Positions 39,836 to 63,726 of a stretch of 64,000 nt of DNA are shown here, piece by piece; position 1 is the stretch's first letter, and every line of letters begins with the position of its first letter. The stretch covers positions 372,001-436,000 of the forward strand of contig NZ_SBIT01000001.1 of NCBI RefSeq assembly GCF_004765785.1, written 5' to 3'. The notes beneath the pieces were generated by a model. The model saw nothing but the letters and a program-made list of their open reading frames with translations. It was not told the DNA's origin and did no database searches. Source of the stretch: Halorussus ruber. GTDB lineage: Archaea > Halobacteriota > Halobacteria > Halobacteriales > Haladaptataceae. Both the position numbers and the translations under genes were made by a program.

Positions 39836-40091
39836 GCTAGCTTCAGGCTCGAGCCGAGGAGTTACCGCAACCGCCCCGCACCGCGACAGCCTCACACCTC
39901 CCCAACCGATTGCGGTCCTCGGCCATGGGCCTGCGGTCCTCATCCACCGGCGGACAAACCGCGTCCGCCGAGCCTTCGGCTTCGCCGAAGACCTCGCGCG
40001 ATTCGGGCGGCGCACGAGAGCGCCGACGGACAAACCGCGTCCGTCGAGCCGTCGTTCGCTTCGCTCACGACGACGCCGCCCAGCGCGCGCC
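39836..40091 (-). repeat. Dispersed repeat family C, copy C3 (inverted, with extra hairpins)
   Basis: Read on the minus strand, this element starts GGCGCGCGCTGGGC and ends CTCGAGCCTGAAGCTAGC, with GGTTGGGGAGGTGTGAGG identical to copy C1. It is longer than the other copies because it carries additional hairpins. Two have the AAACCGC loop: 39948-39970 (arms CGGCGGAC/GTCCGCCG) and 40024-40046 (CGACGGAC/GTCCGTCG). One has the TCGCTTCGCTC loop: 40050-40072 (CGTCGT/ACGACG). One is at 39974-39990. It occupies the gap between uspA and birA. Confidence 0.75.
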
Positions 40092-40127: not shown

Positions 40128-41123
40128 TCACACCGGTCGGAGGTGTTCGCAGTCGCCAGCGTGAACCCGAACGCGCTCGCCGTCGTCGGTCTCGACCACC
40201 AGCGCGCCGGGGAAAGCCACGTCCACGGCTTCGCCGACGACCTCCCGGTTCGGCATTTCGACTCGCACTCGCTGGCCGAGGGTAGCCGACCGCTCGCGCC
40301 ACGCCTCGATAGCTTGCTCCGGGTCTGCCCGGAGGTCGTCGAGGCGCTCCAGCAGGCGCTGGACGAACGCCCGGCGGTCCACGTCCCCGGCTTCCTCGCG
40401 GATGCTGGTCGCGCCCTCCGGCAGGTCCTCGGCGGCGATGTTCGCGTTCACGCCGATGCCGACGACGACCCACGAGACGCGGTCGGCCTCGCCCTCCATC
40501 TCGGTCAGGATGCCAGCGAGCTTTCGGCCTCCTCGCCTCGCTTCGCTCGGCGAGACACCGGAAGACTCGCTTCGCTCGTCTTCCGAGTTCTCGTTCGCTT
40601 CCCTCACGAGAACGTCGTTCGGCCACTTGATTTCGGCCGGGACGCCCGCCTCGCGCGCCGCATCGGTGATAGCCACCGCACCCGCCAGCGTCAGCGCCGG
40701 GACGCGAGCGGGGGCGAGGTCGGGCCGGAGGACCGTGCTCACCCAGACGCCGCCCGAGGGCGCGGACCACTCGCGGTCGAGTCGCCCCCGGCTTCCGGTC
40801 TGCTCGTCGGCCAGCACGACCACGTCGCTGGCCTCCTCGTCGGCCAGTTCCCGGGCGCGGTCGTTGGTACTCCCGACGGCGTCGTGGTACTCGATTTCGA
40901 AGGGCGCGTCGAGGCCGAACTCGACGGCGGGACCGCCGTACTCGGGCACCCCGGCCAAGGCGTAGCCGTCGTCGCCGCTGTCGATTTCGAAGCCCGCCTC
41001 GCGGAGCGCCTCGACGTGCTTCCAGACCGCGTTGCGCGAGACGCCGAGGCCGTCGGCGAGTTCCGGCCCGGGCACGGGACCGTCCGCGAGGGCGTCGAGG
41101 ACCGCCCGGCGCGTGTCGTTCAT
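40128..41123 (-). CDS. birA: Biotin-[acetyl-CoA carboxylase] ligase BirA
   Basis: A 331-residue BirA with an N-terminal winged helix (LADGLGVSRNAVWKHVEAL) and a ligase domain: VGSTNDRARELA, EQTGSRGRLDREWSAP (biotinyl-AMP loop), EIKWPNDVLV, GRKLAGILTEM and VVVGIGVNAN. It attaches biotin to the PccA lysine nearby at 41617-43467 and may repress biotin genes. Oddity: between KWPNDVLV and GRKLAGIL there is an extra 25-residue polar segment encoded by three tandem palindromes (40532-40613), so the ligase carries an in-frame insertion at a surface loop next to its active site. The start 41123 (MNDTRRAVLDAL) is chosen. Confidence 0.93.
   Translation of the reverse strand: MNDTRRAVLDALADGPVPGPELADGLGVSRNAVWKHVEALREAGFEIDSGDDGYALAGVPEYGGPAVEFGLDAPFEIEYHDAVGSTNDRARELADEEASDVVVLADEQTGSRGRLDREWSAPSGGVWVSTVLRPDLAPARVPALTLAGAVAITDAAREAGVPAEIKWPNDVLVREANENSEDERSESSGVSPSEARRGGRKLAGILTEMEGEADRVSWVVVGIGVNANIAAEDLPEGATSIREEAGDVDRRAFVQRLLERLDDLRADPEQAIEAWRERSATLGQRVRVEMPNREVVGEAVDVAFPGALVVETDDGERVRVHAGDCEHLRPV
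40532..40613. repeat. Three tandem hairpins inside birA, same 11-nt loop
   Basis: Three perfect hairpins lie head to tail within the coding sequence. CTCGCC/GGCGAG at 40532-40554. CGGAAGAC/GTCTTCCG at 40559-40585. GTTCTCGT/ACGAGAAC at 40587-40613. The first two share the loop TCGCTTCGCTC and the third has TCGCTTCCCTC. Stems differ completely but every pair is matched. Confidence 0.9.
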
Positions 41124-45309: not shown

Positions 45310-45490
45310 GACCGGGGAAACCGCTGTAACTTCGAAAGCCCTTGCGCTCGGAACCGCAGGAGTAACCGGGACAGCAACGTCCTCGAAAGCCCTCGCACTC
45401 GGAACCGCAAGAGTAGATGGGACTGCAACGTCCTCGAAAGCCCTCGCACTCGGAACCGCAAGAGTAGATGGGACTGCAACGTCCTCGAAA
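45310..45490. repeat. 51-bp tandem repeat array
   Basis: About three and a half copies of a 51-bp unit (from CCCTCGCACTCGGAACCGCA through AGAGTAGATGGGACTGCAAC to GTCCTCGAAAG). The two central copies are identical and the outer ones diverged. Since 51 is a multiple of three, the minus strand reads as 17-residue peptide repeats, but composition and lack of start context argue against a gene. The last unit runs directly into composite element E2, whose left end (TCGAAAGCCCTCGC) is the same sequence. Confidence 0.85.
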
Positions 45491-45620
45491 GCCCTCGCGC
45501 GGTTCGCGGTCGCTCAGCGACATATCCTCGACTCACCTTCGCTTCGCTCGGTTCGTCTCGGATAGGGGTCGGCTGAGACGACCACGTACACGCGAACCGC
45601 GCTCGCCCTTTCAGTCCGCC
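45485..45620 (+). repeat. Composite hairpin element E2
   Basis: Outer 12-bp arms GCGCGGTTCGCG (45497-45508) and CGCGAACCGCGC (45591-45602) enclose nested stems CTCAGC/GCTGAG and TATCC/GGATA. A tip carries the loop TCGCTTCGCTC (45539-45549). The unpaired linker AGACGACCACG (45576-45586) precedes the right arm. Ends are TCGAAAGCCC and CCCTTTCAGTCC. Element E1 at 52821-52950 has the same layout with different paired bases. The remaining 45621-45694 holds nothing recognised. Confidence 0.8.
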
Positions 45621-52820: not shown

Positions 52821-52950
52821 TTGAAGCCCCCGCCCGGTCGCGGTCGCTGAGCAGGATATTCGGGGCCTCTCCGCACAACCCGGCCCCGAATAGTTGCCTG
52901 CTCAGACGACCACGGGTCTCCGACCCGCGACCGGGCGGCCCCTTCATCCA
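52821..52950 (+). repeat. Composite hairpin element E1
   Basis: Outer 14-bp arms CCGCCCGGTCGCGG (52830-52843) and CCGCGACCGGGCGG (52925-52938) enclose CTGAGCAGG/CCTGCTCAG (52847-52855, 52897-52905) and then ATTCGGGGCC/GGCCCCGAAT (52858-52867, 52882-52891). The unpaired linker AGACGACCACG is at 52904-52914. Ends are TTGAAGCCCC and CCCCTTCATCC. Same architecture as E2 with different stem bases. The rest of 52653-53075 holds no gene. Confidence 0.85.
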
Positions 52951-59460: not shown

Positions 59461-59533
59461 GGGATGAAGGGGCCGCCCGGTCGCGGTCACGCGAGGGAAC
59501 CGAGCGTGACCGCGACCGGGCGGGGGCTTCAAG
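59461..59533 (-). repeat. Hairpin element E3 (short form of E1, inverted)
   Basis: A perfect 20-bp stem (59473-59492 with 59504-59523) closes the 11-nt loop GAGGGAACCGA. That loop is one base from the complement of the third birA hairpin loop. Flanks GGGATGAAGGGG and CGGGGGCTTCAAG are the ends of element E1 in reverse. The stem begins CCGCCCGGTCGCGGTC, as E1 does. It lies in the 490-nt gap between ychF and the zinc-ribbon gene. Confidence 0.9.
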
Positions 59534-63618: not shown

Positions 63619-63726
63619 TCGAAAGTCCTCGCGCGGTTCGCGGTCGCCGGAAGACAAACTGCGTCTTCCGAGGTCACCCTCGCTCCGCTCGCGTGACCGC
63701 GCCCCGCGCTCGCTCTTTCAGTCCAC
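63619..63726 (+). repeat. Composite hairpin element E5
   Basis: Ends TCGAAAGTCCTCGCGCGG and CGCTCTTTCAGTCC match element E2. Inside are two hairpins: CGGAAGAC-AAACTGC-GTCTTCCG (63648-63670) and GGTCACCC-TCGCTCCGCTC-GCGTGACC (63672-63698, one mismatch). The inner part thus joins the AAACYGC-loop and TCGCTTCGCTC-loop families in one element. The remaining 63536-63875 shows no gene. Confidence 0.85.

Follow-up and report, generated by a model that had tools for sequence, protein, structure and literature searches.

Twin hairpins in frame within birA of Halorussus ruber as a probable copy of a dispersed haloarchaeal repeat

Introduction

The best-known case of the in-frame insertion of palindromic DNA into genes is that of Rickettsia (PMC10969869). 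Among other short palindromic repeats, the CGTC families of REP sequences are described as bearing a CGTC, TGTC or CCTC tag (PMC3733652). DNA hairpins that end in a GNA loop, for example GCGAAGC, are reported to be very stable and resistant to nucleases (PMC4686876). Here we analyse a 64,000-nucleotide stretch of the genome of Halorussus ruber (contig NZ_SBIT01000001.1, positions 372,001 to 436,000), referred to as the window, in which the gene for the biotin protein ligase BirA contains three hairpins between the segments encoding KWPND and RKLAGI. This birA segment is probably one of the dispersed copies of a twin-hairpin repeat that is present across haloarchaea. A search in listings of freely accessible journal papers returned no earlier description of the element.

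Hairpins in the birA gene

A first-pass annotation of the window had reported three perfect hairpins inside birA, with arms of 6, 8 and 8 bp that each close 11 nt, and all three were confirmed where it had placed them (Table 1). The coding strand of birA reads GTTCTCGT-GAGGGAAGCGA-ACGAGAAC, T, CGGAAGAC-GAGCGAAGCGA-GTCTTCCG, GTGT, CTCGCC-GAGCGAAGCGA-GGCGAG, and the 11-nt stretches closed by the hairpins are TCGCTTCGCTC, found twice, and TCGCTTCCCTC, found once. Folding of the insert as single-stranded DNA produced all three hairpins on both strands; folds as good were obtained from none of 200 shuffled sequences on the coding strand and from one of 200 on the other. When the 30 residues of the insert were re-encoded synonymously 200,000 times, with codon frequencies taken from the predicted genes of the 856-kb sample, three such hairpins arose six times and two arose 628 times. 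Therefore, the peptide alone does not dictate the hairpins, and the explanation that the palindromes are there by chance or are forced by the peptide was ruled out.

The insert resembles sequences elsewhere in the genome. BLASTN against the rest of the 856-kb sample, with birA masked, aligned it to intergenic copies at 87-93% identity (E 6e-7); the best hit in reversed DNA had an E value of 0.013. The part belonging to the third hairpin is 93% identical over 30 nt to the intergenic copy C2:338316-338287. Judged by sequence, hairpins 1 and 2 (H1 and H2) are one complete twin-hairpin copy, and hairpin 3 represents part of another. The annotation's view of three inserted palindromes was thus replaced by that of a twin-hairpin unit, of which about one and a half are present at the site.

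Table 1. Coordinates of birA, its hairpins and the repeats of the window
Feature	Position	Strand	Evidence and remarks
birA (biotin protein ligase, N-terminal HTH), host gene	40128..41123	-	331 aa; Pfam BPL_LplA_LipB, BPL_C and HTH domains
Complete in-frame twin-hairpin element, 57 nt, encoding VLVREANENSEDERSESSG	40557..40613	-	R2 50.4 bits, E 9.5e-10 over 856 kb
Partial second element, limited to its first hairpin, encoding VSPSEARRGG	40527..40556	-	R2 26.8 bits
Hairpin 1 (H1), GAGGGAAGCGA closed by 8-bp arms	40587..40613	-	Perfect inverted repeat; corresponding birA hairpin covaries across genera
Hairpin 2 (H2), arms CGGAAGAC/GTCTTCCG, 8 bp	40559..40585	-	Perfect inverted repeat
Hairpin 3 (6-bp arms), first of the partial second element	40532..40554	-	Perfect inverted repeat
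Intergenic twin-hairpin copy past birA 3' end	40022..40074	-	R2 79.5 bits; in R2 seed, match partly by construction
Second intergenic twin-hairpin copy, H1 reduced to GCGAAGC hairpin	39946..39992	-	R2 60.6 bits
Further twin-hairpin copy, outside called genes	63646..63698	-	R2 62.4 bits
R1 long palindromic element holding 45539 motif	45488..45613	-	R1 105.9 bits; in R1 seed, match partly by construction
R1 long palindrome	52823-52946	-	R1 family member
R1 long palindrome	59465-59530	+	R1 family member
R1 long palindrome	63622-63720	-	R1 family member

Architecture of the twin-hairpin element

The genome contains 131 copies of the motif GAGCGAAGCGA, compared with 63 of the reversed pattern. Among the 29 distinct copies that were read, the arms around the motif are either 0-2 or 5-8 bp long, and 13 of these 29 have arms of at least 5 bp. 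Arms of this length surround about 0.25% of 11-nt stretches in the background (1,268 of 509,287 positions sampled from 80 haloarchaeal loci). Many intergenic copies are double and consist of H1 with the GAGCGAAGCGA-type cap, a linker that is mostly GCT, and H2 with arms like CGGAAGAC/GTCTTCCG and the loop GCGGTTT. The H2 of birA has the same arms, but the H1-type cap GAGCGAAGCGA replaces GCGGTTT. The consensus recognised by eye in several genera is GT-CCTCGT-GAGCGAAGCGA-ACGAGG-GCT-CGGAAGAC-(variable loop)-GTCTTCC-GGY, and its sense strand translates as VLVSEANEGSEDERSESSG.

Fourteen intergenic Halorussus copies, with no birA copy among them, were aligned to build the covariance model R2, whose matches span 48-75 nt. 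In this seed alignment, 11 of the 16 pairs changed on both sides, and covariation was 0.501 compared with 0.183 in shuffled alignments, a kind of test that is inflated by paralogous repeats. Further pair types showed no excess over the shuffles (121 of 500). The covariation extends to the inner pair of the supposed 11-nt loop, and the outer of the pairs inside the cap is A-T instead of G-C in three seed copies. Because the inner pairs covary, the cap is not an open loop of 11 nt; it is best read from the alignment as a structure of GA, two covarying pairs, a GNA triloop and GA (GA-NN-GNA-N'N'-GA). The coding strand of birA has GA-GC-GAA-GC-GA at this place, and the open loop of the original description was revised accordingly. 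In this genome, such hairpins are flanked most often by GA/GA (18 of 57). Its excess is weaker in other genera outside birA (11 of 110), and only four of those hairpins have a GAA loop. The stability of the GNA loop may matter for the element inside the cell.

In the 856-kb sample, the genic R2 hits above 22 bits lay only in birA, as determined for 54 of the 58 hits with gene calls from a simple codon scorer, the other four being left out. Two weaker hits of the sample (21.8 and 19.8 bits) are also putatively genic. Intergenic copies of the birA loop had been proposed at 40050 and 45539. The first lies in a member of the family (40022-40074, 79.5 bits), while the second lacks perfect arms and is part of a different, longer palindrome. 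A search of Rfam 15 at the gathering score, covering the window and seven stretches of the same genome that hold copies, matched only tRNA and sR-tMet, which ruled out a known RNA family.

Distribution of the element

R2 matched 112 of 116 haloarchaeal genomes, which represent 43 of 45 genera, and 29 of 30 further haloarchaeal genomes. A phylum-wide draw of 120 genomes gave 18 matched genomes, all among the 19 marked as belonging to the own or same order, and none among the 101 outside the order, of which 19 are individually named, with the mark 'same phylum', and 82 are not. Copy numbers per genome are lower bounds, since candidates were scored up to a fixed maximum. Most copies are located outside genes, and some are in frame within genes. 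In the 30-genome set, G264, G154 and G152 have at least 51, 82 and 40 matches, respectively, compared with 12 or fewer in most others, and these may be recent expansions of the element. One contig region (G027:C2:230807-231117) contains six tandem twin-hairpin matches with a period of 52 nt. With the 57-nt copy as a query, six plasmid records of PLSDB were found, all from Haloarcula or Halorussus, and phages gave no match.

The birA site across haloarchaea

When 80 named haloarchaeal loci (1.54 Mb) were searched with R2 at E values up to 0.1, the birA site accounted for 35 of the 53 hits, which were distributed over 14 loci and lay on the sense strand throughout. Among eleven Haloferax loci, eight have between two and five hits at this site, mostly 54 or 48 nt apart. 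A GA-capped hairpin occurs at KWPND^VLV in 18 of 91 BirA rows, and the linker at this position varies from 5 to 88 residues among the 91 rows. The figure of 25 extra residues, given by the first-pass annotation, depends on the reference chosen, since Halorussus linkers have 10 to 48 residues, with 28 in this genome. In five loci (L033, L046, L065, L089 and L115) the host V[LV]V picks up again past the unit, which identifies GAC^GTN as the insertion point.

On a tree of the 91 BirA rows, calculated with the linker excluded, the hairpin trait changes at least eleven times, gains and losses being counted together. The trait was defined as any GA-capped linker hairpin with arms of at least 5 bp, which in L093 is the one of the second unit. 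Close relatives are not all alike at birA, as had been asked of the insertion reading: the sisters L056 and L043, joined with 98% support, have a hairpin in a 28-residue linker and no hairpin in a 10-residue linker, respectively. The H1 arms of birA changed on both sides in five of ten pairs across genera, with covariation of 0.309 compared with 0.201 after shuffling (22 rows, 17 of them distinct, including three decayed copies). The birA linkers of L079 and L112 contain further hairpins nested in the H1 loop, which would fit hairpin tips being themselves targets of insertion.

At least six hairpin-free rows (L097, L103, L109, L111, L121 and L131) read GACGTCCTCGT at the site, a sequence similar to the element's own start. 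The gene may be a hotspot partly because the GAC-GTC-CTC-GT of many species resembles the 5' end of the element. The birA site is recurrent across haloarchaea and may be old; from the sequences, both repeated insertion and one old insertion followed by losses are possible.

Copies in other genes

The element is also in frame in the genes for ETF-alpha, CbiC, CobN, a histidine kinase, HMG-CoA reductase and a DEAD/MZB helicase. The copy in CbiC is close to the N terminus, and that in the histidine kinase adjoins the HATPase domain. The idea that dispersed palindromes enter archaeal genes in frame therefore holds, and more widely than was first proposed. The in-gene copies share one sense frame. 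A possible exception, for which the coding filter gave a different frame and orientation, is L261; it was set aside. L225, which failed the filter (N-terminal), was counted as coding by its Pfam match. The coding screen comprised 61 loci in range, one of them too short.

The clearest case of insertion is in HMG-CoA reductase. In the genus of G264, the site is filled in G264 only and empty in nine of the ten species read. The insert is exactly 48 nt long, with nothing duplicated or lost, and its 150-nt flanks are 95% and 93% identical to those of the empty site in G266. Thirteen genomes were searched for this gene, giving twelve near-complete matches and a fragment (G262), and the site was read in ten, G143 and G263 being left aside. 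In CobN, for which ten of 13 searched genomes matched, the element follows GAG-GAC in two of ten species. The filled site is flanked on both sides by GTCCGC or GTCCAC, which on sequence is possibly a short target duplication. Two more positions of CobN contain in-frame inserts: at site A, filled in one of six species read, G051 (L239) has a twin-hairpin insert of another kind, 57 nt long, and site C has a further kind of twin-hairpin insertion (L240, in G040), filled in five of nine. The clean filled and empty sites of HMG-CoA reductase and CobN are contrasts between species of one genus, and no movement was seen within a species.

Coding-like DNA of the same strand (180 nt) flanks five of 60 copies on both sides, and the frame is kept in all five, two of which are CobN copies; this test does not presuppose a frame. 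A count of lengths that are multiples of three (seven of seven coding copies) was dropped as circular, because the filter could only yield in-frame copies. Under another definition of the ends, 17 of 22 copies in this genome also have lengths that are multiples of three.

Consequences for the protein

The fold of BirA predicted by AlphaFold from an alignment with 33 haloarchaeal BirA sequences is confident (mean pLDDT 85.4). Residues 176-195 have pLDDT values below 50 and are flanked by strands 170-173 and 200-212. Solved BirA homologues include 1bia, 1wnl and 3rir, and the alignments to 6apw and 3rir break at residues 173 and 201, which flank the insert. In the model, the insert is probably an extruded, disordered loop. 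In-gene copies would survive if their length, orientation and frame yield a harmless hydrophilic loop, as at the beta-hairpin turn of BirA, and the sense strand in the surviving copies would then read V-x-[AV]-S-[ED]-[AV]... The best explanation for the survival of these copies is that selection favours frame, orientation and surface loops.

A second repeat family in the same genome

The longer palindrome around 45539, where ACC pairs with GGT around the motif with one extra base, belongs to a second family, R1. Members of R1 are long nested palindromes, TGAARGGG...GGGCTTY, with covarying stems (double changes in 14 of 30 pairs), and the family has no match in Rfam. At least 148 matches are present in this genome and 0-101 in 17 other Halorussus genomes. 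Within the class, at least 35 of 145 genomes were matched among the best 25 candidates per genome. Twin hairpins lie within or beside many of the R1 elements inspected. A link of R1 to the birA hairpin was rejected, as none was seen: the birA genes of G003, G012 and G015, which have 97-101 R1 matches, are free of hairpins. G002, with eleven R1 matches, has an imperfect birA H1, and G007, with one, a decayed birA H1. Repeats of the CTCGGCCGAA type stand before R1 long palindromes, and degenerate repeats GAGGACGTTGCTGTCC...CTGCGGTTCCGAGCGCGAG run past them in L147, L152, the window near 45440-45488 and other R1 flanks.

Spread of the element and alternative explanations

The absence of a target duplication in the clearest case, together with the hairpin form, suggests a single-stranded route. 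Based on the copies described above, the element would spread as a single-stranded hairpin with a GNA triloop and GA/GA, in a manner that did not duplicate the target in HMG-CoA reductase; the route may be an HUH-type enzyme yet to be named or replication-based copying. We speculate, and consider it rather unlikely in this full form, that a transposase-independent hairpin parasite of single-stranded DNA has colonised the whole archaeal class, with a GA-GNA-GA cap that is recognised or copied, arms that are kept paired by hairpin-templated copying and a sense strand that encodes a harmless acidic peptide, and that it has invaded core metabolic enzymes in frame. Such an element would be a standing source of new protein loops.

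Alternatively, the element could be one of the known repeats that a Y1 transposase mobilises, namely a PATE or SMR repeat of haloarchaea or a REP of the CGTC type, which we consider unlikely. The hairpins and the lack of a target duplication in the clearest case agree with this assignment, and haloarchaeal PATEs with IS605-like palindromes are described together with SMR-A repeats of unknown mobilisation (PMC3119063). Moreover, of 60 copies, 22 start with CGTC and 13 with its variants in REPs, TGTC (11) or CCTC (2), which gives 35 in total (PMC3733652). However, GGTC (12) and AGTC (4) starts are also common, none of the copies starts with GTAG, and the rest have other starts. Four of the eight carriers tested (G009, G040, G089 and G102, with at least 13-38 R2 matches) lack the Y1 transposase (PF01797), and all four non-carriers tested possess it, many of these copies being broken. 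Since its presence does not track the element in these twelve genomes, an IS200-type TnpA was rejected as the mover. The ends of IS605/tnpB elements were likewise rejected as a source: the genome has 23 tnpB matches, and at least about 2.3 kb separates each of the seven within the 856-kb sample from the nearest long palindrome.

A single insertion into an early haloarchaeal birA, inherited and then lost in places, with nothing moving today, would account for the shared site and strand of the birA hits. Nevertheless, this history is doubtful, because Haloferax species have differing second hairpins after a near-identical H1, and because a site in another gene, that for HMG-CoA reductase, is filled in only one of ten species of a genus.

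The hairpins could also have been built in place, if replication slippage and template switching repeatedly generated and perfected palindromes in a linker that is rich in GC and tolerant, with caps that converge on the very stable GCGAAGC hairpin. In birA, the 5' arm of H1 can be read as host V-[LIV]-V codons to which the 3' arm conforms, hairpins are nested in the H1 loop of L079 and L112, and linker length differs between close rows (18 residues in L105 and 42 in L112), as this process would predict. An origin in place is improbable, since the order of the two hairpins, the linker and the arms of the second hairpin recur at unrelated sites in many genera, and HMG-CoA reductase and CobN show clean 48-nt differences. 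It may, however, explain the perfection of the arms after insertion. Strictly host-templated arms are not required, as copies outside genes already have GTCCTCGT arms. A cis-acting structure of the birA mRNA, kept for its function, would fit the compensatory changes within the coding region and the sense orientation of all birA hits, but is very improbable given that 73 of the 91 BirA rows have no GA-capped hairpin with arms of at least 5 bp and that the same element is found in unrelated genes and outside genes.

Comparison with known systems

Reading the birA segment as a copy of the dispersed twin-hairpin element places in-frame palindromic insertion in archaea, with matches in nearly all sampled haloarchaeal genera and clean filled and empty sites. 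In tractable hosts such as Haloferax, two questions become testable: by what means such small palindromes are moved when no transposase is evident, and in what way proteins acquire loops. For annotation, peptides like V-x-V-S-E-A-N-E-x-S-E-D in haloarchaeal enzymes may stem from a repeat rather than from function.

Inverted repeats within protein-coding genes are also described from the mitochondria of Nematomorpha, but these repeats, from four animal species, are perfect and long (as much as 284 bp) and do not form a dispersed family of ~50 nt (PMC6649704). REP sequences of the GTAG and CGTC families share with the haloarchaeal element short hairpins, complementary changes in the arms, many copies and the presence of some copies in genes (PMC3733652). 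They differ from it in that the haloarchaeal element is a two-hairpin unit with a GA-GNA-GA cap, half of whose tested carriers are without a Y1 transposase; one text on REPs contains no word beginning with 'halo' (PMC12306157). The PATE and SMR repeats of Haloquadratum walsbyi are similar in being haloarchaeal, transposase-free, without target duplication and related to palindromes (PMC3119063). PATEs are described there as related to IS605 ends, whereas no such link was found for the twin-hairpin element. The comparison with the PATE/SMR (HqIRS) repeats was made by description and not by sequence, and a family link is possible.

The closest parallel in outcome is the Rickettsia palindromic element (RPE), whose repeats occur between genes and in frame within unrelated genes, to which they add a peptide (PMC10969869). 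The haloarchaeal element is likewise present outside and inside genes, and the host protein stays readable with an in-frame copy in birA, CobN, HMG-CoA reductase and ETF-alpha. RPEs are rickettsial and about 150 bp long (PMC10969869), whereas the haloarchaeal element has 48-75 nt, two hairpins and GA-GNA-GA caps. The resemblance appears to be an analogy of outcome.
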